Positions 7,043 to 38,096 of a stretch of 64,000 bases of DNA are shown here, in pieces (position 1 is the stretch's first letter; each line of letters opens with the position of its first letter). The translations under genes were made by a program, and so were the position numbers. The notes under the pieces were generated by a model. That model ran no database searches. It was given only the letters and a program-made list of their open reading frames with translations, and was not told the DNA's origin. Source of the stretch: Tardiphaga sp. P9-11 (GTDB lineage Bacteria; Pseudomonadota; Alphaproteobacteria; Rhizobiales; Xanthobacteraceae); the NCBI RefSeq assembly GCF_008329525.1, contig NZ_NPKQ01000002.1, positions 1-64,000 on the forward strand, in the 5' to 3' direction.

Positions 7043-7071
7043 GATTGTCTCCTTCGACGAAGTGAGGGGAT

Positions 7072-15154: not shown

Positions 15155-15178
15155 GTGTTCACCTGAATTGAACGTGCT

Positions 15179-17735: not shown

Positions 17736-17743
17736 CTATTTCG

Positions 17744-20850: not shown

Positions 20851-20892
20851 CTGGGCTTCGAGCCGCCGCTACGCCGATGGACGTCCGACACC

Positions 20893-21290: not shown

Positions 21291-21420
21291 GCCGTACAAC
21301 CGGTGCTCTGGAGCTGGGAGGACGTGGTTGTGTCTCCGGGCCACCTCGGGGTCGTTTAGGGTCGATTGCTCTCGGCTATCTTTGGGTTATCGTCGGAGAG
21401 AGTGGACGCTGCTGTCCGGA

Positions 21421-22329
21421 ATGGGATTCGAGAATTTGGACAGTCTGAGCGCGCTAAGTGCATTCGTCCGGGCAGCTGAAGCCCGCAGCTTCACGATCGC
21501 CGGTCGGCAGTTGGGTCTGTCATCCTCCGCGATCGGAAAGACGATTTCGCGCCTTGAGGATCGTCTGGGCGTGCGGCTCTTCCACCGCAGCACTCGGACG
21601 ATCTCCCTGACCCAGGAAGGCACCACGTTCCTGGAGGCCTGCCGCCGGATCTTCGCCGAGATCGAGAACGTCGAAAAGGAGTTCGCGCAATCGACCGGGG
21701 TCCCCAAGGGGCGGATGCGCGTCAGCCTTCCGCTGGTGGGCATGCTCATGATGCCCACGGTGGCCAGGTTCCTGAAAGCGTATCCGGGCGTTGAGCTCGA
21801 CATGGAATTCACCGACCATCTCGTCGACGTCATCGACGGCGGCTACGACGTCGTCGTCCGGTCCGGCCAGTCCACGGATTCCAGGCTGATGTCGCGCCAT
21901 CTCGGACGCTACGAGTTGCAGATCGTGGGATCGCCGGCATACCTCAAGAACGCGGGAACGCCCCGCGTCCCGCAGGACTTGCTGTCCCATTCCTGCCTTC
22001 ACCACAGATATCCGACTTCGGGCAAGCTGCAGGCCTGGCCGTTCAAGGCGGACGCCGCGAAGGACCTCGTCCTTCCGTATTCCGCTATGGCGACGACCAT
22101 CGAGGCCCTCGTCTCCATGGCCGAGAACGACGTCGGGCTGGCATGCGTGCCCGACTTCGCCGTACGCAGCCAGATCAAGGCCGGCGCCCTCGTGACGGTG
22201 CTGAAGGACTCCACGGAGCATGAGGGGGTTTTCCGGGCGTTATGGCCGACAAGCAGGCACCTGGCTCCTAGGGTCCGGGTATTCGTCGACTTCCTCGCCG
22301 AACACCTTTTCGTCGATCCGGAACACTAG
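21421..22329 (+). CDS. LysR-family transcriptional regulator (paralogue B)
   Basis: 302 residues from the ATG at 21421 (MGFENLDSLSALSAF), which matches the usual LysR start; the frame is open 31 codons further upstream. Helix-turn-helix: FVRAAEARSFTIAGRQLGLSSSAIGKTISRLEDRLGVRLFHRSTR. The effector domain has VSLPLVGMLMMPTVARF, DMEFTDHLVDVIDGGYDVVVRSG and ACVPDFAVR. It is very close to paralogues A and C. A tautomerase gene lies convergent downstream with seven bases between stops. Confidence 0.9.
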   Translation: MGFENLDSLSALSAFVRAAEARSFTIAGRQLGLSSSAIGKTISRLEDRLGVRLFHRSTRTISLTQEGTTFLEACRRIFAEIENVEKEFAQSTGVPKGRMRVSLPLVGMLMMPTVARFLKAYPGVELDMEFTDHLVDVIDGGYDVVVRSGQSTDSRLMSRHLGRYELQIVGSPAYLKNAGTPRVPQDLLSHSCLHHRYPTSGKLQAWPFKADAAKDLVLPYSAMATTIEALVSMAENDVGLACVPDFAVRSQIKAGALVTVLKDSTEHEGVFRALWPTSRHLAPRVRVFVDFLAEHLFVDPEH

Positions 22330-22336
22330 GCAGTTT

Positions 22337-22726
22337 CTAGAGCTCGCCGGTCAGGAATTGTGCCCGTCCCAGACCGAATGACCAGTCCTCGTCCGCGTTC
22401 GTCACAAAGTTCACGGCGAGATCGCTGGAGGGGATGCCGCAGCGGGAAGCAAGCTCCCCGGCGAGCGAAGCATAGAATTGCTGCTTTGCCTCCTTGGTCC
22501 GTGGGCGCGTCGTGATCTGCAACATCACGACCTTGTTCGTCCGCTTCATGCCAAGACCGGTGTCTTCGATGATCATGCGGGTCGGCCGATGCTCGTGGAC
22601 GATCTGATAGCGGTCCCGGGGGGACACCTTGAACGCAGCCACCATCACCTCATGGGTCACGTCGAGCATGCTCTTCAAGTCGGTATCTGACCATCCTTCG
22701 GCGAGATCGAAGCGCAAAAGCGGCAT
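22337..22726 (-). CDS. Tautomerase-family protein
   Basis: 129 residues, opening MPLLRFDLAEGWSDTDLKSMLDVTHEVMVAAFKVSPRDRYQIVHEH, typical of the malonate-semialdehyde-decarboxylase-like branch of tautomerases; Pro2 would be the catalytic base. Further family pattern: VVMLQITTRPRTKEAKQQFYASLAGEL and VNFVTNADEDWSFGLGRAQFLTGEL. It is the second tautomerase in the cluster. Confidence 0.85.
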   Translation of the reverse strand: MPLLRFDLAEGWSDTDLKSMLDVTHEVMVAAFKVSPRDRYQIVHEHRPTRMIIEDTGLGMKRTNKVVMLQITTRPRTKEAKQQFYASLAGELASRCGIPSSDLAVNFVTNADEDWSFGLGRAQFLTGEL

Positions 22727-22786
22727 CCGTCAATTCCTGTCGTTTAATTTCGTGTGGACCGACCCGGTTCATGCGTTCAGCGAGTA

Positions 22787-23266
22787 TTAAGCGCCACTCA
22801 AGCTCGCGAAATCGTCCTGGCTCAGTTCGATGGACGCCGCGCCAACCCTTTCGTCGAGATGCGCGACCTTCGAGGTGCCCGGATCGGCAGCATGGCCCGA
22901 CTCCGCTTGAGCAACGATGCGAGCGCTATCTGGCCCGACGTCGCGCCACGCTTCTTCGCCATTCGGTCGAGCGAAGACCCCAGCCGCATCAGTGCCCCGC
23001 CGCGAGCGGATGCCACGGAATGAAGCCGATGTCGTGGGCCTCACAGTAGTCGTCGCGATGAACATGCCTTTGCCCGCCGGAAACGCCTCTCCGATGAGCT
23101 CTTCCGAGACATCTGGGCCGTAGGAGTCGGCGGTGTCGATGAAATCTACGCCGATCTCGGATAGTCTCGCGAGGGCGCGTAAAGCCTCAGCGCGGCCCGA
23201 CGGAGAACCCCAGATCCCCCTGCCCGTTATCCTCATCGCGCCGAACCCGAGGCGATTGATCGGCAC
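22787..23266 (-). pseudogene. Aldo/keto reductase remnant
   Basis: The minus frame opens with [50 protein letters not shown] (catalytic Asp and Tyr of the family) and then loses the pattern. The end returns to the AKR C-terminus ([14 protein letters not shown]). About 160 of an expected 280-290 residues remain, so most of the barrel is deleted. The natural start upstream is also lost: the frame carries a stop just before [10 protein letters not shown] and the open reading uses a GTG at 23266. Confidence 0.72.
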
Positions 23267-23462
23267 CTCGCCGCCGATCTTGAACTGCCCACCTTTGATG
23301 CGTCCGGAACTGCCATGCTATTCTCTGTCTGAGCCTGCACGAAATGCCCGCTCGCCCCCGTGCGGCTTGGATGAAAGCACGACGTGCCAGCTGTTCGGAA
23401 GGTGGCTGCGTGTACGAACAATGCAGACACCGTTGTCTACAATCCCGGCGAATGATCTGTTT

Positions 23463-24152
23463 TCAGCACGTCGCGGTGCGAGCTTCCGCATTCGCGCCGA
23501 CGAAGAGCACCGAGGTCGACCCGCACGGTTCAAAGCGCTGGACGAACGATCCTTTCAAGCTGTCCGTCAGACCTTCGATCAGCTTCAATCCCTGTCCCGA
23601 TCTGAGCGGCTTATGCGGACTGCCGTCGTCGCTGACTCGGCATTCGACGGTGCCTCCGGATATCGTCAGTTCGACGAGGATGTTGCCGCCCGAGGCTCCG
23701 AAGGCATGCCGTGAGGCATTGGTCACGAGCTCGGCGACGATCATGCCGACCTTCCAGCAGACATCGCTGACGAGAAGGACAGGTCCTGCTGACAGCGTCA
23801 GATTCACCTGGGTGGACGCCAGCCGCGCATCGACGAGCGCCTCGCACAGTTCCCGGAAATACTCGGTCGCGTCGATGACCAACCCGCTGTCACGCATTTG
23901 GAGAGCACGGTTCAGACGCGCTTGCGCATGGATGCAATCGGCGACCACACCCAGCGCGACCTTTGCCTCGACACTCACGGCACGGGAGGTAGTCCGCGAG
24001 ATCAGGCTGACGGCGGACGCGAACTCGCTGTTCACGCGATGCAGAATTTCGCGGACCAGCAATTGTTCGTAGCGCTCTCTGGACGTCTCCAGATCATCTC
24101 CGGACGTTTCGACGTCTTCGCCCATCGGGGCTCGTTTGGCATGATGCAACAT
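23463..24152 (-). CDS. Sensor histidine kinase, HWE/HisKA_2 type
   Basis: About 229 residues; the start at 24152 (MLHHAKRAPMGEDVE) is tentative, since the frame is open to 24254. The phosphoacceptor segment LLVREILHRVNSEFASAVSLIS has the histidine typical of HisKA_2/HWE kinases. The ATPase domain has ELVTNASRHAF (N-box) and VSDDGSPHKPLRSGQGLKLIEGLTDSL (G1 and later glycine box). No sensor domain or membrane helix is visible, so it is a short cytoplasmic kinase. No response regulator lies next to it. Confidence 0.8.
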   Translation of the reverse strand: MLHHAKRAPMGEDVETSGDDLETSRERYEQLLVREILHRVNSEFASAVSLISRTTSRAVSVEAKVALGVVADCIHAQARLNRALQMRDSGLVIDATEYFRELCEALVDARLASTQVNLTLSAGPVLLVSDVCWKVGMIVAELVTNASRHAFGASGGNILVELTISGGTVECRVSDDGSPHKPLRSGQGLKLIEGLTDSLKGSFVQRFEPCGSTSVLFVGANAEARTATC

Positions 24153-24476
24153 TTCCGGGCCCCGAGTTTCCGTCTTCTTCGGCCACCATCGAATTTGTGC
24201 ATGGCGGTGCGAGGATGATTGCAATCGAATTCGCCACGATATTGAAGCTTTCACAGGCGCTTTGAACGATATCGCGCAAATAGTCGCCTCACAAAACGCA
24301 CTTTGATGATCTGAATAATATTGGCCACTTTAGGATGCATCTTTCGGCTTTGCGACACTCAACGCTAGTTGGCTCCGAAGAAACCGTCTATACACGGTTG
24401 GGCAGACGAGATGTGGAACGCAAAGACGCGTTTGGCCCGACAATCCTGAACACGTCGAACTGAAACAAGGAGCGAC

Positions 24477-25682
24477 ATGAGACGACGCGACCTGCTCGCG
24501 CTGCTCGGTGGCACGGCGTTCTGGCCGGCGATCGCTCAAACTCAGCCGGCGGGCGTCGCCGGCGGGCAAGAAATTCGAATCGGCAACATCATGCCTTACA
24601 GCGGGCCCGCATCCGCATTCAGCGCGATCGGTACCGCGATCGACGCTTATTTCCGGAAAGTGAATGACGAGGGCGGCGTCAACGGACGCAAAATCAAGTT
24701 CATCTCGTACGACGACGGATACGTCCCGTCGAAGACGGTCGAACAGGCGCGCAGACTGGTCGAGGGCGACGAAGTCCTGCTGCTGTTCGCTACGCTCGGC
24801 ACGGCGTCGAACGCCGCGATCCAGAAGTACATGAACTCGAAGAAGACGCCACAGCTGTTCGTGCTGACGGGCCTTACCCGTTTCAGCGATCCCGAGAACT
24901 ATCCTTGGACGATGGGCTTCCAGCCGACCTCGCGCGACGAAGCGCGCGGCTATGCGAAATTTCTTCTGCGGAACCATCCGGGCGGCAGGATCGCGATCCT
25001 TTCGGAGAACGACGACTTCGGGCGCGACTACGTTGCAGGCATGAAGGAAGGCTTGGACGGCAAGATCCCTGTCGTTGCGGAAGCAGTCTACGATGCGACC
25101 TCGCCAACCGTGGATTCCCAGATCGTGACACTGAAGTCGTCGGGCGCGGACATATTCTTCAACGTTGGGACACCGAAATTCACGGCGCAGGCGATCCGCA
25201 GGACCGCAGAGATCGGCTGGAAGCCGGTACAGATCATCATCAGGCCATCGAGCTCCATCGGAGCGGTAATCGCACCCGCAGGTCTGGAAAACGCCGTCGG
25301 CATCATTTCCAGCGAGTTCGTCAAGGATCCGACCGATCCGGCGTGGGCGGGCGATCCAAAAGTCCGAGAGTGGTCGGAATACATGGCCAAGTACAACCCC
25401 GCGGGAGACCTGAACAGCAATCTGAACGTCGCTGCTCATTGCATGGCGCAAGCGCTCGTCCAGGTGCTGAAGCAATGCGGCGACGACCTCACGCGGGAGA
25501 ACGTCATGCGCCAGGCCGCCAACCTCAGGCATGTCGAGCTCGACATGGTGCTTCCCGGAATCACCGCGAACACGACGTCCGCCGATTATTTTCCGATCAA
25601 GCAATTTCTGCTCAAACGCTTCGACGGCAAGCGATGGGAGACCTTCGGCCACCTTGTCGGCGATATCGTCCGCAAGGGGTAG
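24477..25682 (+). CDS. ABC transporter substrate-binding protein, branched-chain amino-acid type
   Basis: 401 residues with a twin-arginine-like signal (MRRRDLLALLGGTAFWPAIAQ), so exported to the periplasm. The mature part is a Peripla_BP_6 (LivJ/ANF-receptor-like) protein: IRIGNIMPYSGPASAFSAIGTAIDAYFRKVNDEGGVNGRKI, YDDGYVPSKTVEQARRLVEGDEVLLLFATLGTASNAAIQKYMN, NDDFGRDYVAGMKEGL, and TRFSDPENYPWTMGFQPT. No permease or ATPase genes are near, so it works with transporters elsewhere. Such proteins bind aromatic or amide compounds as well as amino acids. Confidence 0.9.
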   Translation: MRRRDLLALLGGTAFWPAIAQTQPAGVAGGQEIRIGNIMPYSGPASAFSAIGTAIDAYFRKVNDEGGVNGRKIKFISYDDGYVPSKTVEQARRLVEGDEVLLLFATLGTASNAAIQKYMNSKKTPQLFVLTGLTRFSDPENYPWTMGFQPTSRDEARGYAKFLLRNHPGGRIAILSENDDFGRDYVAGMKEGLDGKIPVVAEAVYDATSPTVDSQIVTLKSSGADIFFNVGTPKFTAQAIRRTAEIGWKPVQIIIRPSSSIGAVIAPAGLENAVGIISSEFVKDPTDPAWAGDPKVREWSEYMAKYNPAGDLNSNLNVAAHCMAQALVQVLKQCGDDLTRENVMRQAANLRHVELDMVLPGITANTTSADYFPIKQFLLKRFDGKRWETFGHLVGDIVRKG

Positions 25683-25878
25683 TGCCCGACGCAGGGCTGG
25701 CATGGGAGCTGTCACGTTGGCAGAGCCCGGTTACTTTGTTACCTACACGACATTGCCCAGTGATGGACGGGATTAAAGTCAAAGTCGACTTTACTGCGAA
25801 GATGACGATACTTTTGGCGCCTCGGTGCTTTGCCGTCGCGGCTGGTGATCGCACTCCGCGGAAGCTGAACGGACAAAG

Positions 25879-28662
25879 ATGCCCACCATTTTCAGCTTTG
25901 GAGATTTCGAATTCGACGGCGGGACCGGCACCCTGACGCGGGACGGCAGGCCGATTGTCCTTGGCAGCAGAGCGGTCAGCGTCCTCCGGACGCTCATCGA
26001 GCGGCGCGACGAGTGCGTGAGCAACGCGCAACTGCTCGCAGCGGGGTGGCCAAACGTCCAGGTCGAAGAGGCAAACATCCGGGTCCACGTTGCGGCGCTC
26101 CGCAAGGTGCTCGGCGACCACGGGCGGTTCGTCTCGAACACGATCGGTCGCGGCTATCAGTTCATTGCGCCCGTAAAGATCTTAGAGACGACCGCGAGGC
26201 TTCCAGCGACCGCAGCCAGATTCCGATCGAACATGCCTTTCGCGCCGGCGCGTTTAGTCGGCCGGAGGGAGGTCGTCGCGCGCATCTCGTCGGCGCTTGC
26301 CCCTCACTCAGTGATCACGATTTCCGGGACGGGAGGCATCGGCAAGACCAGCGTGGCCCTAGCAGTGGCGCAGGAGTGGGAGCTCGATGAGAGGGCGGAA
26401 GTCGCCTTCATCGATCTAGGAGCCGTTTCGGACCCGAGCCGCGTATACGCGGCCGTCGCCACGCCTCTGTCGATACGTTCGGCCTCCGAGGACGTGCTCG
26501 GCGCCATCATCGGCAGCCTCCAGACCCGCAATGTGCTCCTCGTCCTGGACAACTGCGAACATCTCATCGATCCCATCGCGAACCTTGCCGAAGTGCTGGT
26601 CGAGGCGACAGAGGTCAGGTTGCTCACCACCTCCCGCGAGCCTCTGCGTATCAAGAACGAAGCGGTCCACCGGCTGGATCCTCTACCTTTCCCGGAAGCA
26701 GGATCTGACCTGTCGGCGGCGGGCGCCATGGCCTTTCCCGCCGTCGAGCTTTTCGCCCAGCGCGCGCGATCGGTGCTCCAGACTTTCGAGATCACTGATA
26801 CCATGGCGCGCGACGTCGCCGAGATCTGCAGGCGGCTCGACGGGAATCCCCTGGCGCTCGAGTTCGCGGCCGCCCGCGTCGAGAGCTTTGACCCAAAGGG
26901 CTTGGCTTTCGCGCTCGACAGGCGGTTTTCTCTACTGACGCAGGGTCGTCGAACCGCGCCGAGCCGGCAAATGAGCCTGAAGGCGACGCTGGACTGGAGC
27001 TACCGCCTCCTCACTCCCGACCAGCAGTCGGCCCTTCGGCAGTTGGCCGTTTTCTCCGGCAGGTTCAATCTAGCAGACGCGGAAGGCGTGGTGGCATGTG
27101 GATCGGCCTCCGCTTTGGTCATCGATGCCATCGCCGAGTTGGCGGCAAAATCCATGATCGCCGTCGATCTCGGTGAGGACGAAGTCACCTACCGCCTATT
27201 GGAATCGATCCGCGCCTACGCGTTGGAAAAGCTGGGTGAAGCGGGTGAGGCCGACGACGTGCGATCACGGCACGCGGCGCATTTTCTGAAAGTCTTTCAG
27301 ACCCAAGACGTGGAATGGGACAAGGCACCGCCGTCCGACGTGCTGCGGTTCTACCGGATAGCCGTCGACGACGTCCGGACGGCGATTCACTGGGCATTCC
27401 AGCGGGTCGACGACGAAACGGGCATCCGCCTGACCGCCGCTTCGGCTCCGATGTGGTTTCATCTGAGCCTGCTCTATGAATATCAGGAGCATCTGCGGTT
27501 CGCTCTGCAGCGTTTGGAAATCCGAGGCGTGCCAAATCCGTTGCACGAGATGCAGCTGCAATGCGCCTTGGCGGTCTCGCTGTTCACGAGCGGCCGTCTC
27601 CTGCCGGAGATGAGCGCCGCGGGTGAACGTGGCCTACTGTTGGCGGAGGAGCTGGGAGAGATCAGGCATCAACTGCGCGCGCTCTGGGCGCTCACCGGCT
27701 CTTCGACCTTGAACGCAGATTACGTCGAGGCGCTTTCCTACGCCATGAAATTCAAGCACGCCGCTGCGCAGACGTCCGACATCAACGCCATCCACGCGTC
27801 CTACCGCATGATGGGACTTCAATCGACCCTTGCCGGTCGGCACCTAGATGCCCGCCGCTTCTGTGAGACGGCGCTCGATGTCGGCGCAAACGACCTTACG
27901 GGTCAGCGCAACACCTTCGTGTACGACCACATGCCGGTTGCGCGGGCGACGTCGTCCCGCGTTCTTTGGCTCCTAGGCTATCCCGACTCGGCGCTCTCCG
28001 AAGCAGATCGCGCGGTAACCGAAGTCTTGGCCTCCGGACAGCCCGCGAGTGCCATGTTCGTGATGGCGATCGGCGCCATTCCAGTCGCATTCTGGTCCGG
28101 CGACTGGAATACGGCGAAGGACAGGGTCGCTACGTTCTACGCCCACGCCGTCGCCCACGATTTTCCCCGCTGGCAGTCCTACGGAAAGATCTTCGAGTGG
28201 GTGCTCTCGTTCGCGGCGGACGAGGCCGACGACGTGCCGGTCGCCGCCAAGACTTGGACTCCGAGTTCGCTGCACGTGCTCGAACTGGTCGGCTCCCTTC
28301 ACCCTTCTCTGGTCCTCCCGGAAGCTCTGGTCCCCATAGAGGTCAGCGAGGAACGGTGGAGCGCGCCGGAGATGTTGCGCGCAATAGGCGAACAGCTTGC
28401 GGCGCCCGGATGTGAACAAGGAATGGCGAAAGCCGAGGAAATGTTCGTCAGATCCGCCCGCCTGGCAGCGAATCAAGGCGCCCTCGGCTGGGAGTTGCGC
28501 AGCGCCACCAGTCTTGCTCGCCTTCTGAATCGCCAAAGTCGTCATTCGGAAGCGCTCGACACCCTCGCGCCCGTCTACGACCGCTTCACGCAAGGCTTCG
28601 AAAGCCGGGACCTCCGCAGCGCAAGGAAGGTCATGAGGGCAAGCCACCCGGCGGCGGGCTAG
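25879..28662 (+). CDS. STAND-type regulator: winged-helix DNA-binding domain, NTPase and TPR-like repeats
   Basis: 927 residues. Residues 1-100 are an OmpR/PhoB-type winged helix (FSFGDFEFDGGTGTLTRDGRPIVLGSRAVSVLRTLIE to NTIGRGYQFIAPV). Residues about 130-400 form a NACHT/NB-ARC-like ATPase with Walker A GTGGIGKTSVAL, Walker B VLLVLDNCEHLID, TTSREPL and GNPLALEFAAARVE. Residues about 450-900 are helical repeats of TPR character. This is the architecture of AfsR/MalT-like STAND regulators in many alphaproteobacteria. It may integrate a small-molecule signal for the neighbouring AraC and LysR genes; this is inferred from position. The ABC binding protein upstream is on the same strand. Confidence 0.85.
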   Translation: MPTIFSFGDFEFDGGTGTLTRDGRPIVLGSRAVSVLRTLIERRDECVSNAQLLAAGWPNVQVEEANIRVHVAALRKVLGDHGRFVSNTIGRGYQFIAPVKILETTARLPATAARFRSNMPFAPARLVGRREVVARISSALAPHSVITISGTGGIGKTSVALAVAQEWELDERAEVAFIDLGAVSDPSRVYAAVATPLSIRSASEDVLGAIIGSLQTRNVLLVLDNCEHLIDPIANLAEVLVEATEVRLLTTSREPLRIKNEAVHRLDPLPFPEAGSDLSAAGAMAFPAVELFAQRARSVLQTFEITDTMARDVAEICRRLDGNPLALEFAAARVESFDPKGLAFALDRRFSLLTQGRRTAPSRQMSLKATLDWSYRLLTPDQQSALRQLAVFSGRFNLADAEGVVACGSASALVIDAIAELAAKSMIAVDLGEDEVTYRLLESIRAYALEKLGEAGEADDVRSRHAAHFLKVFQTQDVEWDKAPPSDVLRFYRIAVDDVRTAIHWAFQRVDDETGIRLTAASAPMWFHLSLLYEYQEHLRFALQRLEIRGVPNPLHEMQLQCALAVSLFTSGRLLPEMSAAGERGLLLAEELGEIRHQLRALWALTGSSTLNADYVEALSYAMKFKHAAAQTSDINAIHASYRMMGLQSTLAGRHLDARRFCETALDVGANDLTGQRNTFVYDHMPVARATSSRVLWLLGYPDSALSEADRAVTEVLASGQPASAMFVMAIGAIPVAFWSGDWNTAKDRVATFYAHAVAHDFPRWQSYGKIFEWVLSFAADEADDVPVAAKTWTPSSLHVLELVGSLHPSLVLPEALVPIEVSEERWSAPEMLRAIGEQLAAPGCEQGMAKAEEMFVRSARLAANQGALGWELRSATSLARLLNRQSRHSEALDTLAPVYDRFTQGFESRDLRSARKVMRASHPAAG

Positions 28663-28810
28663 ATATGCCACCCATACGAATGGACAGGAAGCCGTCCAGC
28701 CTTTCAAGTTCCCGGTTCGCCGGGAATTAACGCCATTTTACGCCGATTGATTGGTCATCCCCGCTTGCTTCGCCGATCCTGCATTCCTTCTCCCCCGGAG
28801 GATCGGAACC

Positions 28811-29431
28811 ATGAATTCCCAAGCAACGGCATTGCGGCGGTCCGACCCGAAGGCTGGACGTCTTGGCGACCTCGCCGAGAGCCTGATCGATATTCTCACC
28901 GACGCCGCACGCGCCATCGATACCGACAGGTCATCGGCGAAGGCAGCCATCGCCCACGTTTCACAACTCTTACAAAACCAGGTCGGGCCTCGCGCTGCGG
29001 TGAAACTGCACAGCCGGCAGACCGCCAGTCTCGTTGAGTGGCAGGTACGGCGTGTTACAAAATACGTCGACGGCCATCTGCACCGCCAGATCAGGATCGA
29101 GGAATTGAGCCAAATAGCCGGCCGCAGTGCTTGCTACTTCTCTCGGGCATTCCGAGCCACGTTCGGAGAGTCTCCCCGCGCTTACGTCGCGCGCTGTCGC
29201 GTCCGCTACGCCGGCGATCTGATGCTGACGACACCCATGTCGTTCAGCGAGATCGCGCTTGCAAGCGGCTTTTCGGACCAAGCCCACCTTTGCCGCAATT
29301 TCCGCGATCTGACGGGGACGACCCCTGCTGCGTGGCGGCGCGAACACAGAGACCTTACACCGGGTCCGGGAACGGCGACCGCCGCTCTGCCGTCGCCTCA
29401 AAGCCGAATGGATCAGCATGGACAGCATTAG
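28811..29431 (+). CDS. AraC-family transcriptional regulator (short)
   Basis: 206 residues from the ATG at 28811, with GGAGG at suitable distance upstream. The AraC HTH block is clear: YVDGHLHRQIRIEELSQIAGRSACYFSRAFRATFGESPRAYVARCRVRYAGDLML and MSFSEIALASGFSDQAHLCRNFRDLTGTTPAAWRR. The N-terminal ~80 residues carry no recognisable sensor domain, so it is a short member. Its last 14 bases overlap the LysR start, an operonic arrangement. Confidence 0.85.
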   Translation: MNSQATALRRSDPKAGRLGDLAESLIDILTDAARAIDTDRSSAKAAIAHVSQLLQNQVGPRAAVKLHSRQTASLVEWQVRRVTKYVDGHLHRQIRIEELSQIAGRSACYFSRAFRATFGESPRAYVARCRVRYAGDLMLTTPMSFSEIALASGFSDQAHLCRNFRDLTGTTPAAWRREHRDLTPGPGTATAALPSPQSRMDQHGQH

Positions 29432-30410
29432 CGCACTCACGGTCTTCGTCAGGGCGGCCGAGCTCCGGAATTTCACCGATGTCGCACGCCAGCTGAATCT
29501 GTCGTCTTCGGCCATCGGAAAAGCGATCTCCCGTTTGGAGGAGCGCCACGGTGTCAGGCTCTTCCACCGGAGCACGCGCACCGTGACCCTCACCCAGGAA
29601 GGCAGGTTCTTCCTCGATAGCTGCCGAAGGATTCTCGCAGAATTCAAGCGAGTGGAAGCGGAGTTCAAACAGACGAAATGCGTGCCCAGGGGGCCGCTGC
29701 GGGTGAGCCTGCCAGCGGTGTCGAATCTGCTCGTGAGTTCGATTAGCGATTTCATGACGAAATATCCCGACATCGGGCTCAATATCGAGTTTACGGACGA
29801 GCACGTCGACGTCATCGAAGGCGGCTACGACCTGGTGGTGCGCGCTGGGGCCGCAAACGACTCCAGACTCATGACCCGGCAAATGGGCCGCTATCACTGG
29901 GCTATGGTCGGATCGCCCGGCTACTTCGAACGGAACGGCACACCGTCGATTCCGCATGAGCTTCTTCAACATGCTTGCCTGCGAAGAAAATGCGCTCGCT
30001 TGGGGCGGATCAATCCATGGCCAGTGTGCTGCGATGACGACTTGGAACTGCCCGAGACGATCACGACGACATCCTTCGAAGCCCTCATCGCTCTGGCCGT
30101 GGGCGGACACGGACTTGCCTGCGTGCCCGAGTTTGCCGTCAGAGAACAGATCGCCGCCGGGACACTCGTCTCAGTCATGGCGAACCATTTGCCGATTGAC
30201 CAAGCCTTTTGCGCCGTGTGGCCGACGAGCCAGTACCTTTCGCCACGCCTCCGCGTATTTCTCGACTTCTTGGCGAAAAAGCATTTTCCAATCCTGCCAC
30301 CTACAGTGGGTGCCCACGAGCAAGCATCAGTCGAAAAAGACGCGGAATCGTATATTGAAAATTCCAGTCACCCGAGAATGCTAACGCCCCTTTTTTCGGT
30401 AAGCCATTGA
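29418..30410 (+). CDS. LysR-family transcriptional regulator (paralogue C)
   Basis: 330 residues. Helix-turn-helix: FVRAAELRNFTDVARQLNLSSSAIGKAISRLEERHGVRLFHRSTR; effector domain: VSLPAVSNLLVSSISDF, IEFTDEHVDVIEGGYDLVVRAG, ACVPEFAVREQIAAGTL. It is very close to paralogues A and B. The C-terminal ~35 residues after FLDFLAKKHFPI (VGAHEQASVEKDAESYIENSS...) exceed the other two and may come from the IS-derived DNA that follows, which starts about 50 bases after the stop. Confidence 0.88.
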   Translation: MDSISALTVFVRAAELRNFTDVARQLNLSSSAIGKAISRLEERHGVRLFHRSTRTVTLTQEGRFFLDSCRRILAEFKRVEAEFKQTKCVPRGPLRVSLPAVSNLLVSSISDFMTKYPDIGLNIEFTDEHVDVIEGGYDLVVRAGAANDSRLMTRQMGRYHWAMVGSPGYFERNGTPSIPHELLQHACLRRKCARLGRINPWPVCCDDDLELPETITTTSFEALIALAVGGHGLACVPEFAVREQIAAGTLVSVMANHLPIDQAFCAVWPTSQYLSPRLRVFLDFLAKKHFPILPPTVGAHEQASVEKDAESYIENSSHPRMLTPLFSVSH

Positions 30411-30460
30411 AGCGCGCCACGAACGTGCGATGCTCATAAGTCGCATACCACCAAGTTTGC

Positions 30461-30665
30461 CTGAACACGCACTGGTTCCTGAGCCTTGACGACGCACGCC
30501 AGAAAATGGAGGATTGGCGTAGAGACTACAACGAAGTCCGGCCACATAGCGCAATCGGTAACAAGACGCCGATATCGCTGTTGAATGGCTCATCGGCGCC
30601 CCCGCCGGCATGAGCCTAACCCGGGAAAATTCCAGCGCTGGCTGGCCTAGTTTCGGGGTGCACTT
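30461..30665 (+). mobile_element. IS3-family orfB 3' remnant and right end (right copy)
   Basis: The plus frame from about 30461 reads [41 protein letters not shown] and stops at 30613. This is the C-terminus of an IS3-family (IS407-like group) OrfB integrase core: the DDE glutamate region has been lost. The terminal stretch to 30665 ends in TTTCGGGGTGCACTTCA and repeats in inverse orientation at 4695-4772. The remnant is too short for transposition. Confidence 0.8.
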
Positions 30666-30821
30666 CAAATAATCAAAGGATTCTTCCCGTCGCTGGATGA
30701 AGCTTGGGGCTCAGGTCACCATTCACCGCCCTGTAGGTGGCTTTTATCGGTGATGAGAATGCCAGTTGCGCTCCCGCCTTCCTCTGCGCGCCATGTCCCT
30801 CGGCGTCGTTTTAGACAATCG

Positions 30822-31097
30822 ATGTCTTTGAAAGATCGGTTGCAAGAAGAGGCCCAAAATCTGCACCACGAAGCAGAGATGCTGGCCGACGGCGCGGTTC
30901 GGGATGAAGTCTTGAAACCGGCGCGGCAAACTGAAATCGCAGCCCATAGGGAGGATTGGCTCGGGCCTCCGACACCGCCGAGAAAATACGAGACACCCGG
31001 CCGTAAGCATCGGACCGCGCAACTGAACTCAGCTTACTTCGCTCGGGCACGATCACTGCTGCCGCGATCAACGCGATCAAGAGGCATATTGAGCTGA
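30822..31097 (+). CDS. Small conserved rhizobial-type protein, possibly truncated
   Basis: Up to 91 residues from the ATG at 30822. The first half reads SLKDRLQEEAQNLHHEAEMLADGAVRDEVLKPARQTEIAAHREDWL, a helical, charged pattern found in many short hypothetical proteins of Bradyrhizobium-like genomes (repeated Leu-x-Glu helices, then a WLxPP end). The rest does not match and runs into the recombinase module's last gene on the other strand, so the 3' part may be chimeric. Function unknown. Confidence 0.45.
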   Translation: MSLKDRLQEEAQNLHHEAEMLADGAVRDEVLKPARQTEIAAHREDWLGPPTPPRKYETPGRKHRTAQLNSAYFARARSLLPRSTRSRGILS

Positions 31098-31471
31098 TCC
31101 ACCGATAGTCGGCCGTACGTACGAGCGTTGTTTTGCCACGTAGCGAATTTTTCGAAGAATCCGTCGCGCTGCGCTTTAAAAAATCTGACCTCCTCAAGCA
31201 GACTATCGATGCGCTCCTGCATCACCACCAACTCTCGCGAACCCCCGCTAGCTTTAACCGGTTCTGCAGGCTTCGACTTTAGACGAGCCTTGGCTTGCCT
31301 AAAGGCGGCAGCAATCGACGCCTGCTTGTGAAGTCCTTGCCGCGAGAAGCGCCGACCAAGGAGGATTTCGGTATGACGCAATAAGAGCTCCCAACTCAGT
31401 TCCCCGTCCCAGGAAATGAGCGTTGACAGGATTCCCTCTATTTCGCCACCCTTGAGCCTAGCCTTAGCCAA
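31034..31471 (-). CDS. Small coiled-coil accessory protein of the recombinase module
   Basis: 145 residues. A basic N-terminal half (LGRRFSRQGLHKQASIAAAFRQAKARLKS) and a helical coiled-coil stretch, residues about 80-120 (MQERIDSLLEEVRFFKAQRDGFFEKFATWQNNA). Position at the end of a three-recombinase operon parallels TnpC of Tn554 and GmtX of the gamma-mobile-trio elements, both small accessory proteins. Membership in either family is an inference and was not tested. It may assist DNA binding or target choice. It starts 58 bases after the stop of the 671-residue recombinase. Confidence 0.65.
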   Translation of the reverse strand: MAKARLKGGEIEGILSTLISWDGELSWELLLRHTEILLGRRFSRQGLHKQASIAAAFRQAKARLKSKPAEPVKASGGSRELVVMQERIDSLLEEVRFFKAQRDGFFEKFATWQNNARTYGRLSVDQLNMPLDRVDRGSSDRARAK

Positions 31472-31528
31472 GACGAATCTCTCTCTTTCAATCCGTGGAC
31501 CTGTTTGCCGATGCCTTACTTGACTCGA

Positions 31529-33544
31529 TCATGTCACCATAAGGCCCTGCTTTGATCTCTCGCGTAACGCGACCGCAACTTCGCTATCACGCGTCGCATT
31601 CGGAAGGCTGACGATCGTGCCATCTTCAACTGAATCGTTCTGATGAATTCCAATGATTAACTGAAGACGATCAACCTTCTTATGATGCGCAGCGAGCCAC
31701 CGGTCGGCCTGGGAGAACGCGCTATCGATGTTATCCATTGCTTCCGTCACCTGGCGGCTCGCAATATCGAGTTGCTGTTGAATTTTCTCCGCATGCGCGA
31801 CATCGCCCTTCACAAAGACGCTTTCCGAGCAATCGAAACAATTGCCATGCACCCCGCACGGCTGGAGGGTGTAGTCATGCACGCAAATGCCATAGTCCGT
31901 AATATGCGCCGAACCGATTTGCGCATTCAAGAAATCTTGAAGTGAAACTGGTGGGTTAACTCCGACCTCCGCCGGCACCTCAAACATAGGACCAATGGTC
32001 TTCCCGTCATCAATCGCTTGCCAGATCTGAGACAATCTTTCATCCGCAGTAACATGATCGTACGCTTGGTTTTGCGCAACATCTCGCCCACTCCACGTCG
32101 CAATGTCGAGTTCGCTCAAGCCTTTCAATTGCGCAATAGTATTAATCCAATGCCGAAACGACTTTGTCGTGACTTTGATCTCTGCACCATCTCGCTCGCG
32201 AAATTTCCAACGTTGAAAGACGCTATCATCGCGCCCCGTGATACCGGATAGCCACCGCTCAAATGACTGAACGGTCGCCTTCGCAACGAGACACGAGAAC
32301 GTCGGCTTTTGCAGGCCCGCTTGATTGCGAAGAAGGATCGCGAGTGTCTCGCTGTAACGCTGCCCTCGCTTGCCGTTGAGATAAGGGTACCCCTGGGGCA
32401 TGTAAGAGAGGAGATTCGAAGCCAAAGAAGACAACGAAACCTTTCGGTCACTATCGCGCAACTCAATACCTCGACGACGCAAAACAACGGGGAGCTGCGA
32501 CAGTTCCGCGCCAACAATCAGACGCTGCACGTCCGTTAGCGAGATAAACCCCTCTTTCCGGAAACGCCGAAGCTCTCGTGGTAGCCATAGTTCGTCAGGC
32601 GACTCTTCGTACCACTTCGCGACATTACGCGCTTCTGCTGACAGCTCCTTAAGACGCTCCACCGCTTCACGTGCTACAGACACCATTGGGGTGGGCACCC
32701 ACTTCACCTGTGGTGCCTTACCCTTTCCGGGCCGGATGCGTATCCCATACACGTCCGCCTCTTGAGTCTCTCCAAGCACCTCGCAATCGATCTTTAATTC
32801 CAACACCTCATGCGCACGAACCGGAATACAAACACAAATCGCTGCGATCGCCGAGTAGAAGCGATCCGCGAAAGTTTCGGCGTTACAGAAGACGTGCCCC
32901 AATGCACGAAACGCCTCTGGGCTCGGCAGGATCTTATCGCGTCGGTCCTTTGCTTCACGCCCGAGTGTCTCTCTCGCTTCTTCGGGCTTCCTGACCCCAT
33001 GCTTCCAATTGAATGGTGCGTTAAGAAATTGTCGCTCTTTGCAGAATTCGAGCACTTGCTGCACGTACACCGCGAACTTATAGAAGCGCGACGAGCTCAC
33101 CTCATCTCGCGCTTGAGATAAGCCCGCATGAAGAACATGCGCGGTTAAATTCTCAATCTTTGGTTCCAGACCCAGACGACGGAAACCTGCCTCGATTATA
33201 GCTAGGCCGACCAATCGGTGCTTAGTACTCCCGAACCCAACGGGCTCTGCGGAGTGCCTGTAGCGGATATAGGCCTTTGCGAAATCTTTGAATGCGTCGT
33301 CCAGCGGCTCCCCAGCTATGGAGTGCCGATTTCCCAAAACTGCTTCTCTATTGTAGAATGATAGCACCTTCTCCGACGGGTTTTGTCCCTTAAGGACGAA
33401 TTGATCGCCGACTTGCCACAGATCCCTGTCCCATTCATTATCATCGATAAGCGCATGAATTTTGTTGCGAGAAAGATCGATAAAGTCAGACAACCGTTGA
33501 TCTGGCCGCTTTGCCTTCGATATGAAGGTGATGTGCGCGCTCAC
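31529..33544 (-). CDS. Large tyrosine-recombinase-like protein (third of trio)
   Basis: 671 residues, about twice the size of a simple integrase. C-terminal catalytic pattern is visible but not standard: first arginine in PVRAHEVLEL, then TTKSFRHWIN where the usual H-x-x-R appears as K-x-x-R, a Trp in TWSGRD in place of the second His, and the nucleophile Tyr in NQAYDHV. A cysteine set CVHDYTLQPCGVHGNCFDC near the C-terminus looks like a small zinc ribbon. Sizes and features resemble TnpB of Tn554 and GmtZ of gamma-mobile-trio elements. The start overlaps the upstream gene stop by four bases. Confidence 0.8.
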   Translation of the reverse strand: MSAHITFISKAKRPDQRLSDFIDLSRNKIHALIDDNEWDRDLWQVGDQFVLKGQNPSEKVLSFYNREAVLGNRHSIAGEPLDDAFKDFAKAYIRYRHSAEPVGFGSTKHRLVGLAIIEAGFRRLGLEPKIENLTAHVLHAGLSQARDEVSSSRFYKFAVYVQQVLEFCKERQFLNAPFNWKHGVRKPEEARETLGREAKDRRDKILPSPEAFRALGHVFCNAETFADRFYSAIAAICVCIPVRAHEVLELKIDCEVLGETQEADVYGIRIRPGKGKAPQVKWVPTPMVSVAREAVERLKELSAEARNVAKWYEESPDELWLPRELRRFRKEGFISLTDVQRLIVGAELSQLPVVLRRRGIELRDSDRKVSLSSLASNLLSYMPQGYPYLNGKRGQRYSETLAILLRNQAGLQKPTFSCLVAKATVQSFERWLSGITGRDDSVFQRWKFRERDGAEIKVTTKSFRHWINTIAQLKGLSELDIATWSGRDVAQNQAYDHVTADERLSQIWQAIDDGKTIGPMFEVPAEVGVNPPVSLQDFLNAQIGSAHITDYGICVHDYTLQPCGVHGNCFDCSESVFVKGDVAHAEKIQQQLDIASRQVTEAMDNIDSAFSQADRWLAAHHKKVDRLQLIIGIHQNDSVEDGTIVSLPNATRDSEVAVALRERSKQGLMVT

Positions 33545-35067
33545 TTTAAACTCTCCAGCGGTACGTCAAGCTTACCGTCGCAATACTGAATTACTTGTGC
33601 GACCGCCAAAATAGTCCTGTCGCGGATTTCAAAGATCCTTGGAGAGTACCCGTTATCTACCATCCGCTGGCGATCTGCGATCAGCTTTTCCATAAACTCG
33701 TCATGCGGCCCGTCGATCCAAGGCTGAAACCTGCGGCATGTATAACAAGCATAAGGAGCAGACAGCTCACACAGCCCCGTTTGACCGCAATTTCCAAGTG
33801 CAGCTGAAACATTGTCCTGCAGGGTTCGATCATAGATCCGACTCGAACGGTCGCCTCCTCGAACTGCATCATTCTCATTATGCACGACTGCTCCAGAGAA
33901 CGCCTGCGCTAAAGGCGCCAGCTCCATAGCGAGTGCGCGATCGAGCCGCGCAACAATTTTCGGACTTGCATCGAAATAAGGATATACGCTCTGCGTACTT
34001 GAGTGATCGAGGAGTTCGGCGACGGTGTATTTGTCCTTTCCGTCATCGACGGCACGCTGTGCAATAGTTGACCGAAATCGCTTTGCGTTCGTCTTCAAGT
34101 TCGAGATTCGGCTGATCACGTCGTTGAATATATAGTACACCCTCTCGGCGGAAATATGGTGATCGACACTGAACCGCTCTCGCCTATCTGCAAAGAACAG
34201 AGGCCATTTTTCCTTCTCGAGATTGATCCCTTGGAACTCTCGGCTATTCCAGTCGATTACCTCCTCAATTAATTGACCGATCGGCTTACTGCAGTGGCGC
34301 AGTTTAAACTCCCCTCGTTCAGATTGGCCAATCTGCTTAGCTCGAGGAATTCTCAGGCTATACGCCTTACCGTCGCTTCCATTGGAGACGACCAGATCAC
34401 ATTCCTTGAGCGCTGCGATCTGACACGGCCTAGAGCCGTACGCGATCAGCAACCATGCTACGGCAAATTGATAGAGCGTTATGCGCCCATCCGCGTAACA
34501 ATCATTCAAGCACGACTGGATATATAACAGCTCCGTGTCCTCGAAGGCTCCAGTCTCCGGATCCCTCGTGCGAATAGCAGTCCCCCGAACATTCCGGCGG
34601 AATCGCGCACCGCGCAGGTACTGCAAAGCCTCTAGACTTGCGACGCCGAAACCAGAGTTATCCATCGAGTCAAGCAGCGTTCGCACGTAGCCAAGCTGCC
34701 ACTCCGTCTCCAGACTTAGTCCAGAACGATAGTTGAGGACATCCTCCAATTCGACTTGCAGGCACTCTTCCGGCTTTCCGTGCAATTGCGCGAGGTAGAA
34801 CGCACGAAAATTGTAAAGCATGTTCCTCGCGTAACTAAACGAGCGGTTCTGGACATATTGGAGCATGCCACATTTGAGGCTGTCGATCAGCTCACCACAC
34901 AGATTCGGAAAGCAATCGAAACGGAGCGCGCGCGGACTTTTCACCAGTGACCACAGTACCCACACGTCTGAACGCGGGTTAAATATGATTCCGTCCCTCG
35001 ATCGTGCCGACTTGGGCAAACTCCGCCGTTCAACCTTCGATCGGAAAGCCCGTGGTAGCCGCTTCAT
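33541..35067 (-). CDS. Tyrosine-recombinase-like protein (second of trio)
   Basis: 508 residues. The catalytic pattern: first arginine in AYGSRPCQIAAL, the H-x-x-R site as K-R-F-R in NAKRFRST (His replaced by Lys), second His in LLDHSS and Tyr in VYPYFDA. A Cys-rich segment CGQTGLCELSAPYACYTCRRF follows, a probable zinc ribbon. So all of the DNA-cleaving residues except the first His are in place. It overlaps both neighbours by four bases (ATGA junctions), so the three are translationally coupled. Confidence 0.82.
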   Translation of the reverse strand: MKRLPRAFRSKVERRSLPKSARSRDGIIFNPRSDVWVLWSLVKSPRALRFDCFPNLCGELIDSLKCGMLQYVQNRSFSYARNMLYNFRAFYLAQLHGKPEECLQVELEDVLNYRSGLSLETEWQLGYVRTLLDSMDNSGFGVASLEALQYLRGARFRRNVRGTAIRTRDPETGAFEDTELLYIQSCLNDCYADGRITLYQFAVAWLLIAYGSRPCQIAALKECDLVVSNGSDGKAYSLRIPRAKQIGQSERGEFKLRHCSKPIGQLIEEVIDWNSREFQGINLEKEKWPLFFADRRERFSVDHHISAERVYYIFNDVISRISNLKTNAKRFRSTIAQRAVDDGKDKYTVAELLDHSSTQSVYPYFDASPKIVARLDRALAMELAPLAQAFSGAVVHNENDAVRGGDRSSRIYDRTLQDNVSAALGNCGQTGLCELSAPYACYTCRRFQPWIDGPHDEFMEKLIADRQRMVDNGYSPRIFEIRDRTILAVAQVIQYCDGKLDVPLESLK

Positions 35068-36335
35068 TCCTTGCTCCTTGGAGCCAAAAGCAATTTTCCG
35101 TGCATTTCAGCGAGCACTTCGTTCGCTCGGCGGCGCACCGTTCGACGGAGATATATTGCTGCCGTATCCTCGCTCCTCCACCCCATCAAATACATGCGGT
35201 ACTTCAACTCCATCTCCGGTGTGACCTTCTTTCGATCCATCTCCTCGGAGAATTCGTCATTCCACGTGTGACGAAGAAGATGCGGCGAGAGCTCGACGGG
35301 TAGCCCAGGCACCCGAGTTCGGATGTCCGTCAATATCTTATTGATGTTGGATAGCGACATCGCCGCTCCATCTTGATTACTCACAATGAGGAATGGATGC
35401 CGATGAACTCCAGGTATCTCCCGCCGATCACGCATAATGAGATCGTACAAAAGCTCAGCCAATTCTCCACTGAGCCGCAATTTTCTTGGCAAGGTTTTCG
35501 TAGCAGGTTTGTATGGTCGAGGATCCTCAGGATCGTCGGGCCGACGATGCAACGTTATCGTCGATGCAGAATTAATAGCACAATCGCCGAGTTTTATTCC
35601 CAGGAGTTCGCCACGCCGCATCCCCAACTCCAGAAGCAAGCGTACAATCACGTAGTTCCGAAACCGTACGGCTGACGTGAACGGGTTCTCGGGGTGATTT
35701 GGATCGATCACTTGTCGAAGACGCTCAACGGCCTCCTTTGAAAGCCCTTCCGGAAGATCGTGATGATTTCTAACGTATCGGCGAGCGGCTCCTCGGGTAT
35801 AGCCTCGCACGATCCCGATGAAATGTTCACGAACAGCGCTGTATTGATCGCGCCGTTCCGGCCACGCCGCCAATCCCAAAAGAACCTCAGAACTCTCAAA
35901 CTCGACGAACGACAGAATCGTTGCGAGACGCTTGCCCTTCTCTTCTAACTGAGAGGGCTCAAATGTGCCTTTGTAACGCATGCTGGTGTCCACCACTACG
36001 GAAGATGGGATTTCGTTGATCAACGCAGAGATCGGGCGACCGCACGACTGCACCAGATCGATAAGCTCCGGCATCTGAAGAAATTTCCCCTCTCGTATAC
36101 GCCGACCTATATCGATGCCCCTTGCGTCCGCCCATACGTATAGATGCGCCAAAACGCGTAGTTCATTGGCAAGTGTATTCGGTTGCACCCCTTTTGGTCG
36201 ACGAGATGCTGTGACCCAATAGGTTACTTCCTCCAACGGAAGCCCGTCCTGCACGCGAATGAGAAACGGCATTCTTTCGCCGGATGCGAACGTCGCCCAT
36301 CTCACTGCGTAAGGGTTCCTACTCCCAACGTCCAT
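35064..36335 (-). CDS. Tyrosine recombinase/integrase (first of trio)
   Basis: 423 residues from the ATG at 36335, which has GGGAGG at good spacing; the frame is open to 36437. It is the only member with a standard active site: Arg in LGMRRGELLGI, H-x-x-R in SPHLLRHTW, and Tyr in AAIYLRRT after GWRSEDT. N-terminal core-binding domain covers about residues 20-170. It is therefore likely to be the strand-cleaving partner of the operon. First gene of the minus-strand module, so its promoter lies in the 36336-37589 gap. Confidence 0.9.
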   Translation of the reverse strand: MDVGSRNPYAVRWATFASGERMPFLIRVQDGLPLEEVTYWVTASRRPKGVQPNTLANELRVLAHLYVWADARGIDIGRRIREGKFLQMPELIDLVQSCGRPISALINEIPSSVVVDTSMRYKGTFEPSQLEEKGKRLATILSFVEFESSEVLLGLAAWPERRDQYSAVREHFIGIVRGYTRGAARRYVRNHHDLPEGLSKEAVERLRQVIDPNHPENPFTSAVRFRNYVIVRLLLELGMRRGELLGIKLGDCAINSASTITLHRRPDDPEDPRPYKPATKTLPRKLRLSGELAELLYDLIMRDRREIPGVHRHPFLIVSNQDGAAMSLSNINKILTDIRTRVPGLPVELSPHLLRHTWNDEFSEEMDRKKVTPEMELKYRMYLMGWRSEDTAAIYLRRTVRRRANEVLAEMHGKLLLAPRSKE

Positions 36336-37589
36336 CGTTGAACGCCTCCCATTCGCGCGAGAATGTCGATGCCTTGGAGGTTCGTCAACTGAGTTTGTTC
36401 CTCGATGGCCGACCGCAGGAGTCAACCGTACGGTCAACTAACAAAACAGCGAAACGCTATCATTCACTGACTCGCGCTCGAGTTCTTACGCGAAAGCAGT
36501 TCTGAAAGGACTCGTGTCATGGACGGCACTCTCGGCAACCAATCTACGAAGGACTCGATCCTTCGAGTAGTCACTCCTCTACACCACCAGATCAAACCGG
36601 CTGACTTACGCACGCCGTTGAGCAATGGCCTCATCTGCTACGATCTGACGCAGGACCAGCCACTCTGGTATAGTTTCTCTGGCCACATGTCAGAGTCGCA
36701 TCCAATCAAGAAAGCGAACAGCAGATAGCCCTCTCAAGGAAAGCCACTATCGGAACGAAGAAAACAATATTGCGCGGGTGATTGCGGGCTCTAACGATCC
36801 AAGAGGCATTACCAATGGCGCTACTGATTGATGATGTGAAGGGTTGCAGAATTCGCCGAACAGGAGTTCGAAAGCGCCGGTAACAGTTTCGAGCGCAAGC
36901 AAACCGGCAAGTCACATTTGCGGAATTTGAATCCACCGTTTCGGATGACTCCATCCACGGAGGCGGATATCCGAATGCACCTGGTGCAGTTTGCTTGGCC
37001 TCATTGAGGGCCGCACATACAAATGGAATCGGAGCTTATGAGACCGACTCACCGCCCGCTCTCGCTTCTTTTTGACGGGCGACGTTCAGGGCGGGCACAC
37101 ATCGACCAAATCGCATGTGATAATGATTTGAGATCAGCTTTTAGGAATCTTGCGGCAATCCAACGCGCAATCGAAGTGGACCGTGGTGTTAGGCGAGCCA
37201 ACTACAATCATGCTTCCTGCGTAATACACTTGCAAAGGTAGCGCCGCTGATCCAGCCCGCGATCGGGCCGACGCTTATCGGAATAAGTTTCAGGTTGCCT
37301 TGGAGCAACACTCGACTTTCTTCAATCGCAGCGAACAACGTCCATCCCGATTGAATAACAGTACAGCGCAAAGATCGGGCCTGCTTGCTTGCTATTTGGG
37401 GAGCCGCTGCGCAGGCCCGCTCTCCACTACCGTCCGTACTTTGTCGCGGACCTTAGTTTACATATTAGATACCGGCTCCGCCCCAGCGCAAATATTGACG
37501 ACGGCTCATAATGCCGCTCGTCAACCCGATTTCATTGACCTTCCAACAACTTCCCTCAGGATAGTTGACGCTCCGTCGTTCACGGTGCC
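36336..37589. other. Gene-poor island border
   Basis: 1.25 kb between the recombinase operon and ssb. Only short open frames with no family pattern or ribosome-binding site (for example 36519-36728 plus and 36706-36954 minus). AT-rich against the core. It should hold the recombinase promoter and, if the module defines the island edge, an attachment site near the ssb end. No repeat of the ssb 3' end was found at the other edge within the window. Confidence 0.45.
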
Positions 37590-38096
37590 CTAGAACGGGA
37601 TATCGTCATCCATATCGCTGCCGCGACCGCCACCGCCGGCCGGTGCGGCCACGCGGCGCTGCGGCGGAGCGCTCGACTGGCCGCCGCCGAAGCTTTCGCC
37701 CATGTCGTCGCCGCCGTAACCGCCGCCACCACCCGCGCCGCCGCCCTTGCCGTCGAGCATGGTCAGCGTCGAATTGAAGCCCTGCAGCACGATCTCGGTG
37801 GAGTATTTCTCGACACCCTGCGGATCGGTCCATTTGCGGGTCTGCAGCGCGCCTTCGATGTAAACCTTGGCGCCCTTCTTCAGATATTGTTCGGCGACCT
37901 TGGCGAGACCTTCGCTGAAGATCACGACGCGATGCCACTCGGTCTTTTCCTTGCGCTCGCCGGTGCCCTTGTCGCGCCAGGTATCCGACGTCGCGACAGT
38001 CAGGTTGACGACCGGATTGCCGTTCTGCATCCGGCGAACCTCGGGATCCTTGCCGAGATTACCGACCAAAATCACCTTGTTGACGCTACCCGCCAT
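37590..38096 (-). CDS. ssb: Single-stranded DNA-binding protein SSB
   Basis: 168 residues. The OB-fold covers residues 1-110: [89 protein letters not shown] Gly-rich linker leads to the acidic tip DMDDDIPF that binds replication and repair partners. It coats single-stranded DNA in replication, recombination and repair. An SOS box (38263-38277) stands about 170 bases upstream, so damage induction is likely. It is the first conserved core gene beside the island. Confidence 0.97.

Follow-up and report, generated by a model that had tools for sequence, protein, structure and literature searches.

Mobile islands named GInts carry the four genes ginABCD and frequently target ssb (Bardaji et al., 2017, PMC5385486). 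Among 11 GInts chosen from different species, six are described as occupying the same ssb homologue, with the left attachment site (attL) overlapping the end of the gene, and the islands are characterised in that paper by imperfect direct repeats of 10-17 nucleotides (nt) at the flanks, by cargo located after ginD and by a short 3' end rich in adenine and thymine (AT) (PMC5385486). For other GInts the same source reports that excision and integration require all four genes and that circular intermediates form; Tn6571-family is another name for these elements (PMC10121019). Here we analysed a stretch of 64,000 nt from Tardiphaga sp. P9-11 (contig NZ_NPKQ01000002.1, positions 1 to 64,000; hereafter the window), in which an earlier note had proposed a mobility module at the edge of an island beside ssb as the likely mover of that island. 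Our results bear this proposal out, in that four linked genes are almost certainly the ginABCD mobility unit of a GInt whose island is integrated at the 3' end of ssb. A four-gene unit that had no name is thus placed in a described class of mobile islands and, as both ends of the island can be given, its excision becomes directly testable.

The four genes are open frames on the minus strand of the window, and their sizes of 423, 508, 671 and 145 amino acids (aa) are as first proposed. The first, ginA (35064..36335), encodes a tyrosine recombinase of 423 aa when read from its ATG, the longest open reading frame (ORF) being 457 aa from a TTG at 36437. It is followed by ginB (33541..35067), a second tyrosine recombinase of 508 aa, by ginC (31529..33544, GTG start), a recombinase-fold protein of 671 aa, and by ginD (31034..31471, TTG start), a small helical protein of 145 aa with a predicted N-terminal helical domain and one long helix. 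The ATGA overlaps that the earlier note had given for the whole trio are present between ginA and ginB, whereas ginB and ginC share the four nucleotides GTGA; ginC and ginD do not overlap and are separated by 57 nt. GinA matched Pfam Phage_integrase (E 7.7e-9), and GinB matched it below cut-off (E 0.004) and passed NCBIfam NF041502 'integrase_1' with 402.8 bits against a cut-off of 350, a family that we took as the GinB family. GinC gave a single, sub-threshold Pfam match (DUF6098, 0.094) and none in NCBIfam (E up to 1), GinD gave no match in Pfam or NCBIfam (E up to 1), and among the four operon proteins only GinA and GinB fell into integrase families of PHROGs. We assign the operon to the GInts because its gene order and protein sizes fit, with three recombinase genes and then a small gene overlapping or close on one strand, because NF041502 is matched above its cut-off, and because the relatives described below share the order.

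Homology of the Gin proteins was judged against operons of the same layout, a set without the type element of P. stutzeri DSM 4166. In a plasmid protein search with GinC as query, 53 of the 81 records matched 80% or more of the query at a single place, and identity was below 60% throughout these near-full matches. The annotated order in pTROUS1 and pKPC-4b66 is ssb, integrase, integrase or recombinase, third protein and small protein, at 30-36% identity to the window proteins across most of each gene; their ginD is annotated as a hypothetical protein and has a shorter frame in pKPC-4b66. All four Gin proteins were matched in order, at 27-41% identity, in the four plasmid records inspected (two of them unannotated), with the ginA match split into two pieces in one record (L074). 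Of 397 genomes of the order, 10 contain NF041502, among them that of the window, and the nine other loci, one of which (L094) ends at its contig edge, have ginC in every case, ssb upstream of ginA in five and ginD in four, at up to 49% identity to the window Gin proteins. A scan of genome contigs with ginC alone found no relative, but a scan with the GinB alignment over one genome per species did, and the best 80 of 207 relatives were kept and searched, on the plus strand of each locus only, with profiles built from the earlier loci. The four genes stand in the order A, B, C, D on one strand in 69 of these 80, the ginD profile having no match on the plus strand of the remaining 11. Where at least 1.5 kb lay upstream (72 loci), ssb was found upstream of ginA in 61, no more than 400 nt from the ginA match in 56 of these, and was not found there in 11. 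Among the kept loci are members of several proteobacterial classes and records with the titles Desulfobacterium, Holophagaceae, Planctomycetaceae and Methylacidiphilales, several of them metagenome bins, and the nearest (Rhizobium, Ensifer, Mesorhizobium and others) are 47-53% identical in GinB and 43-50% in GinC. The loci from Rhizobium, Ensifer, Mesorhizobium, Agrobacterium and Bosea agree with the alphaproteobacterial gin operons reported by Bardaji et al. (PMC5385486), whereas PMC10214605 reports that its RefSeq set has no ginC-ginD block in this class. In Afipia massiliensis (L140) a gin operon lies behind dnaN (upstream of ginA, 7387-8577), another replication gene, which encodes the beta clamp, and not behind ssb.

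The resemblances drawn in the earlier note fared differently. RIT elements had been set aside, correctly: they too have three adjacent recombinases, but their proteins are of about 315-410 aa and they are described with three coding regions only (PMC10214605), a definition that neither the sizes nor the fourth gene of the window operon fits. The likeness to Tn554 TnpABC, a site-specific system of tyrosine recombinases with a small third protein, stands in a broad sense, GinD having been compared with TnpC in print, but it had passed over the published four-gene GInt class. That the locus is a strand-biased circularizing element (SE) or a Tn554-type transposon instead of a GInt is highly improbable. 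Such elements follow the same general plan of tyrosine recombinases, a TnpC-like small protein and a fixed target, and SEs further resemble the locus in having four genes, a recombinase-fold protein of uncertain catalysis, a small helical partner and the logic of a 6-bp footprint (PMC10214605). Yet, in a comparison that we made by description, SE and GInt proteins cluster separately and the SE order is intA-tfp-intB-srap, and Tn554, with three genes, is said to have no Tfp/GinC counterpart (PMC10214605), whereas the window has a third recombinase-fold protein of 671 aa; moreover, the relatives recovered in our searches have ginABCD-like operons, most of which lie at ssb. The Gamma-Mobile-Trio (GmtY-Z-X), also named in the earlier note, is similar in being a mobile island rich in defence cargo, according to a citing paper (PMC12039261), and differs in having three core genes, as given in that note.

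The target gene ssb (37590..38096, minus strand) ends in the codons DDDIPF-stop, which form the left attachment site. In the attL region (37580..37600, minus strand) the ssb end CCCGTTCTAG is followed immediately by island sequence, the native flank being displaced, and the ssb stop codon (37590) marks the start of the island. As in published GInts, the insertion is site-specific, attL lies over the end of ssb, and the SSB protein is unchanged. The window ssb was matched by 16 of 17 other genomes of the genus, and each main match stops at query position 507-513, around the stop codon (509-511). A shared native flank follows ssb within 280 nt of the stop codon in nine of the 16 relatives (L006, L009, L012-L018; interrupted further on in L013), GInt-ended inserts are present in three, and extra or different sequence in four (L007, L008, L010, L011). 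Because the relatives divide in this way, the ssb boundary is variable among species of the genus; the earlier note had named a trio fixed at a non-variable boundary, or membership in a distinct non-mobile family, as findings that would contradict it; the site proves variable, and the profiles indicate a mobile family. The flank of G009 was rejected as a candidate for the native flank, since it matched G000 only at an unrelated place and proved to be another insert; the flank of G001 is the native one.

The native flank, as in L006, is found in the window's own genome on contig C13 (C13:3031-4528, 91-92% identical to the empty site), where GyrA follows with its start at C13:3816. In relatives with the native flank gyrA starts about 0.8 kb behind ssb, and therefore the insertion separates ssb from gyrA in this genome. 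The window contributes 37,589 bases and C13 about 3,027, so that the island, with an assembly gap between these parts, is 40.6 kb or longer. The empty core in L006 reads ATTCCGTTCTGATCT, the left island end ATCCCGTTCTAGGGC and the right island end on C13 TTACCAGAGTGATCT. GTTCT is kept at the left end and AGAGT is present at the right end, as would follow from the staggered exchange of a short stretch, and a stagger of 6-7 nt belongs to the published view of GInts (PMC5385486). The 3' end of the island is AT-rich, with a modest difference: 51.6% AT in the last 250 nt, 46.4% in the last 500 nt and 43.1% further in.

We then compared the sequence behind ssb in the 61 loci with ssb upstream, counting offsets from the base after the ssb stop codon; these loci are related and include a few near-duplicates (e.g., L120/L121), so that the counts represent non-independent events. 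The motif [DE][IV]PF closes the ssb frame in 60 of 61 loci, the exception (L170) being a miscalled frame that was kept in the counts, and A stands at +6 in 57, the window differing. From +20 to +25, each letter of T-G-T-A-A-A is conserved in 77-93% of the loci. An exact TGTAAA begins at +20 in 36 loci, and 41 have the looser [TCG]GT[AC]AA there; the mean for 480 offsets is 0.3 sites per offset. Sites cluster a second time at +121 to +125 (38 sites), and a minor peak is present at +74 (9 sites). GInts at ssb therefore share a left-end layout, with TGTAAA-like sites at about +20 and about +124. The window reads CGTCAAC at +20 and TGTAAAC at +128, in its left-end sites CGTCAACT (37563..37570, minus strand, beginning 20 nt after the ssb stop codon) and TGTAAACT (37455..37462, minus strand, beginning 128 nt after it), and TGTAAAG occurs at +24 and +94 of the C13 end when this is read inward. 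The published account identifies no common feature in the GInt 3' end and holds that the recognition signals may be highly conserved (PMC5385486). We did not find this layout described in the main texts and passages of the GInt literature searched, although it may be partly known already, figure 1c of PMC10214605 showing terminal sequences. Its occurrence at ssb in many bacterial groups could explain why distant GInts choose ssb. By eye, the left ends of L073 and L086 show a hairpin and then a T run directly after the left-end site, as though the island supplied ssb with a terminator.

Three relatives (G009, G016 and G004; loci L067, L068 and L069) carry inserts of 2,498, 2,763 and 2,497 nt at the same ssb site, with GInt-type left ends (sites at +19 and at +120 or +121) and right ends CCCTTCTGATCT; a CCnTTCTGA repeat is clear in these inserts. 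No gin operon was found in these three inserts, except for a ginA-like piece in G016 (31% over 89 aa), and they are perhaps remnants or non-autonomous GInts. The L067 insert encodes a methyltransferase and a P-loop protein, and the ginA-like piece is that of the L068 insert.

Active-site positions were chosen after the catalytic residues of Xer, Cre and lambda-type enzymes and counted over letters, gaps left out, in 92 GinA, 92 GinB and 93 GinC sequences (the window, 12 earlier loci and the 80 kept); the GinC set contains one identical pair and five further pairs that are 96-99.9% alike, including L088/L170, one operon fetched twice. GinA has the full complement, with R240 (90/90), K280 (91/91), H352 (89/90), R355 (90/90), W386 (88/89) and Y395 (90/90). 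In GinB, position 213 is R in 84 and N in eight, and K244 (91/92), R332 (92/92), H355 (89/92) and Y364 (90/91) are conserved, but the first position of HxxR is His in none of 92 (R in 27, T in 27, K in 10, others in 28). GinC keeps R243 (92/92), K274 (91/92), R464 (87/87) and Y495 (87/87), with the hairpin Lys and the HxxR helix about 180 aa apart, and R487 (R in 86/88) aligns with the usual His/Trp place through a profile alignment with GinB. The earlier note had observed that only the first recombinase keeps R...HxxR...Y, which is true of the window, where GinB and GinC read K329xxR332 and K461xxR464; both also keep the Tyr. KxxR also serves in topoisomerase IB. The small zinc ribbons that had been proposed correspond to real C-terminal 4-Cys clusters in GinB and GinC, each Cys being conserved in 91/91 GinB and in 83/83 or 84/84 GinC sequences, and these ribbon-like clusters probably bind zinc.

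GinC is described in the literature as missing the first Arg (PMC5385486) and as a protein without the catalytic RHRY motif or Tyr (PMC10214605). Unlike these descriptions, the GinC family keeps Arg, hairpin Lys, HxxR and Tyr almost without exception in the 93 sequences. The predicted model of GinC (mean predicted local distance difference test, pLDDT, 83.6) matched XerH and Cre in a fold search of solved structures, with 11 matches at E <=0.001 (best 3.3e-5; probability 1.00 for all 11), target TM-scores of 0.47-0.60, root-mean-square deviations of 7.7-12.1 A and identities of 10-12%; a search of solved structures with the sequence profile of GinC found no recombinase, the fold search alone recovering them. 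The profile alignment of GinC with GinB is modest (E 1.7e-4, probability 49%) and covers GinC from residue 440 on only, and that with GinA is not significant (E 0.094). In forced global alignments of its first half, themselves non-significant (E 0.05 and 0.10), R243 pairs with GinA R240 and GinB R213. The assignment of R243 as the first Arg is tentative, suggested by motif context, by the succession of helices and strands in the model and by these alignments. W484 had been considered as the active-site His/Trp residue and was dropped, because the profile alignment with GinB puts R487 at that place. The locus is ordinary for GInts, and GinC looks more enzyme-like than the literature says.

We regard as evenly balanced the proposal that GinC is a competent third tyrosine recombinase (R..K..HxxR..R..Y, with Arg at the His/Trp place), that three active enzymes would work with GinD, and that they would use a compact attachment site, common to GInts of several phyla, made up of the ssb tip codons and the sites at about +20 and about +124. 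GinC catalysis is here a prediction. A conserved set of catalytic-type residues in GinC would change the view of how three-recombinase machines work. To our reading of the literature searched, neither the GinC residue set nor the left-end layout at ssb, both computed here from alignments, appears in print. In the mechanism that we propose, GinA, GinB and GinC with GinD would recognise a core at the ssb tip codons (CC-GTTCT-GA) together with the TGTAAA-like sites at the island ends, to which we provisionally ascribe this role, and would make cuts with a short stagger, about 6 nt, presumably also in this island. The island ends would then be joined into a circle, which would integrate at another ssb tip and leave the SSB protein unchanged.

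The likeness of the locus to published GInts (PMC5385486) extends to the four-gene order, the three recombinases with a small helical protein, the cargo behind ginD and the insertion at the ssb end; it differs in a longer leader before ginA, in weak end repeats and in a GinC with KxxR. These differences, and two further observations, weigh against the GInt assignment. The leader (36336..37589, minus strand; 1,254 nt) is about eight times the median of its relatives (155 nt from ssb to the ginA match, 61 loci), 1.1 kb longer than usual, and in the earlier loci it had no protein-level relative and a single 26-nt match, at chance level. The first HxxR position of GinC is His in 85 of 87 sequences and Thr in one, the window alone having Lys; the Lys is therefore an oddity of this copy, and the non-standard site attributed to the third gene does not extend to its family. 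The direct repeats at the ends, ATCCCGTTCTAG and TTACCAGAGTGA, agree by eye in 4 of 12 positions and share only the pattern CC-N5-T. A ginC homologue was found in the window's genome only, among the 61 searched (its own and relatives), with no second copy of the island. Finally, the two island ends would be contiguous across an assembly gap: the window begins at the first base of its contig, within a 127-base repeat found also at the start or end of four other contigs, and the start of C13 has a stretch weakly related to this repeat (72% over 61 nt). A decayed GInt, in which operon and ends remain but the longer leader, the His-to-Lys change in GinC, IS remnants in the cargo and weak end repeats would have left the island immobile, is conceivable but fairly unlikely. 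The leader length and K461 are joined in its favour by inverted 77-bp copies of a piece like an insertion sequence (IS) at 4694-4770 and 30592-30668 and by the three relatives with small same-site inserts that lack a gin operon, one with a ginA-like piece only; but all four gin frames are open, both left-end sites are in place, the remaining catalytic-type residues are intact, and leaders of 643-1184 nt also occur in 5 of 61 relatives. We treat the locus as a GInt copy that is probably active.

GinD, the fourth protein, has relatives in the same place in eight loci of the first set and, at suitable length, in 67 of the 80 kept loci. Its model (mean pLDDT 85.5) has an N-terminal helical domain and a long helix at 79-119, so that the coiled-coil protein of the earlier note becomes a predicted long helix; the model had no match among solved structures at E 0.001. 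One of seven GinD members weakly matches Pfam DUF6262 (0.0044), beside other weak, mostly coiled-coil families. DUF6262 is presumably related to TnpC.

The cargo (1..30668, unstranded) follows ginD, as in other GInts, and comprises an EcoRII-C-type nuclease, SIR2-like and kinase-like proteins, metabolic genes, LysR and AraC regulators and an MFS transporter. Thirty chosen cargo ORFs were searched against Pfam, which gave the EcoRII-C nuclease (77-1003), a SIR2_2-like protein just under cut-off (784-1992) and a protein-kinase domain (3326-4180), as well as alpha/beta hydrolases, SnoaL-like proteins, a short-chain dehydrogenase, an FMN oxidoreductase, an MFS transporter and LysR and AraC regulators. 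Ten proteins were searched against PADLOC, and three of them, the nuclease, the SIR2-like protein (a short match) and the kinase-like protein, fell into defence-type families; the earlier note's description of the operon as near defence-type genes holds loosely, as these lie in the same island about 27-31 kb away. The inverted IS-like copies, 95% alike, flank about 26 kb of cargo whose guanine-plus-cytosine content per kb (0.54-0.65) is mostly above that of the island parts on either side (0.50-0.55), and repeated copies in two relatives resemble 30458-30668 at about 96%. The flanking copies and this base composition would suit an arrangement in which the operon is mobile but the block from 4.8 to 30.6 kb was placed by IS-mediated rearrangement and is no true GInt passenger, which we consider unlikely: its position is between ssb and the contig end, a place at which relatives that retain the native flank have the gyrA start, and among the matches listed it is collinear, at high identity, with none of the 17 relatives. 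Within the cargo, two adjacent stretches of about 1 kb (15209-17662) are inverted relative to each other and 67% alike, the first holding an FMN oxidoreductase gene.

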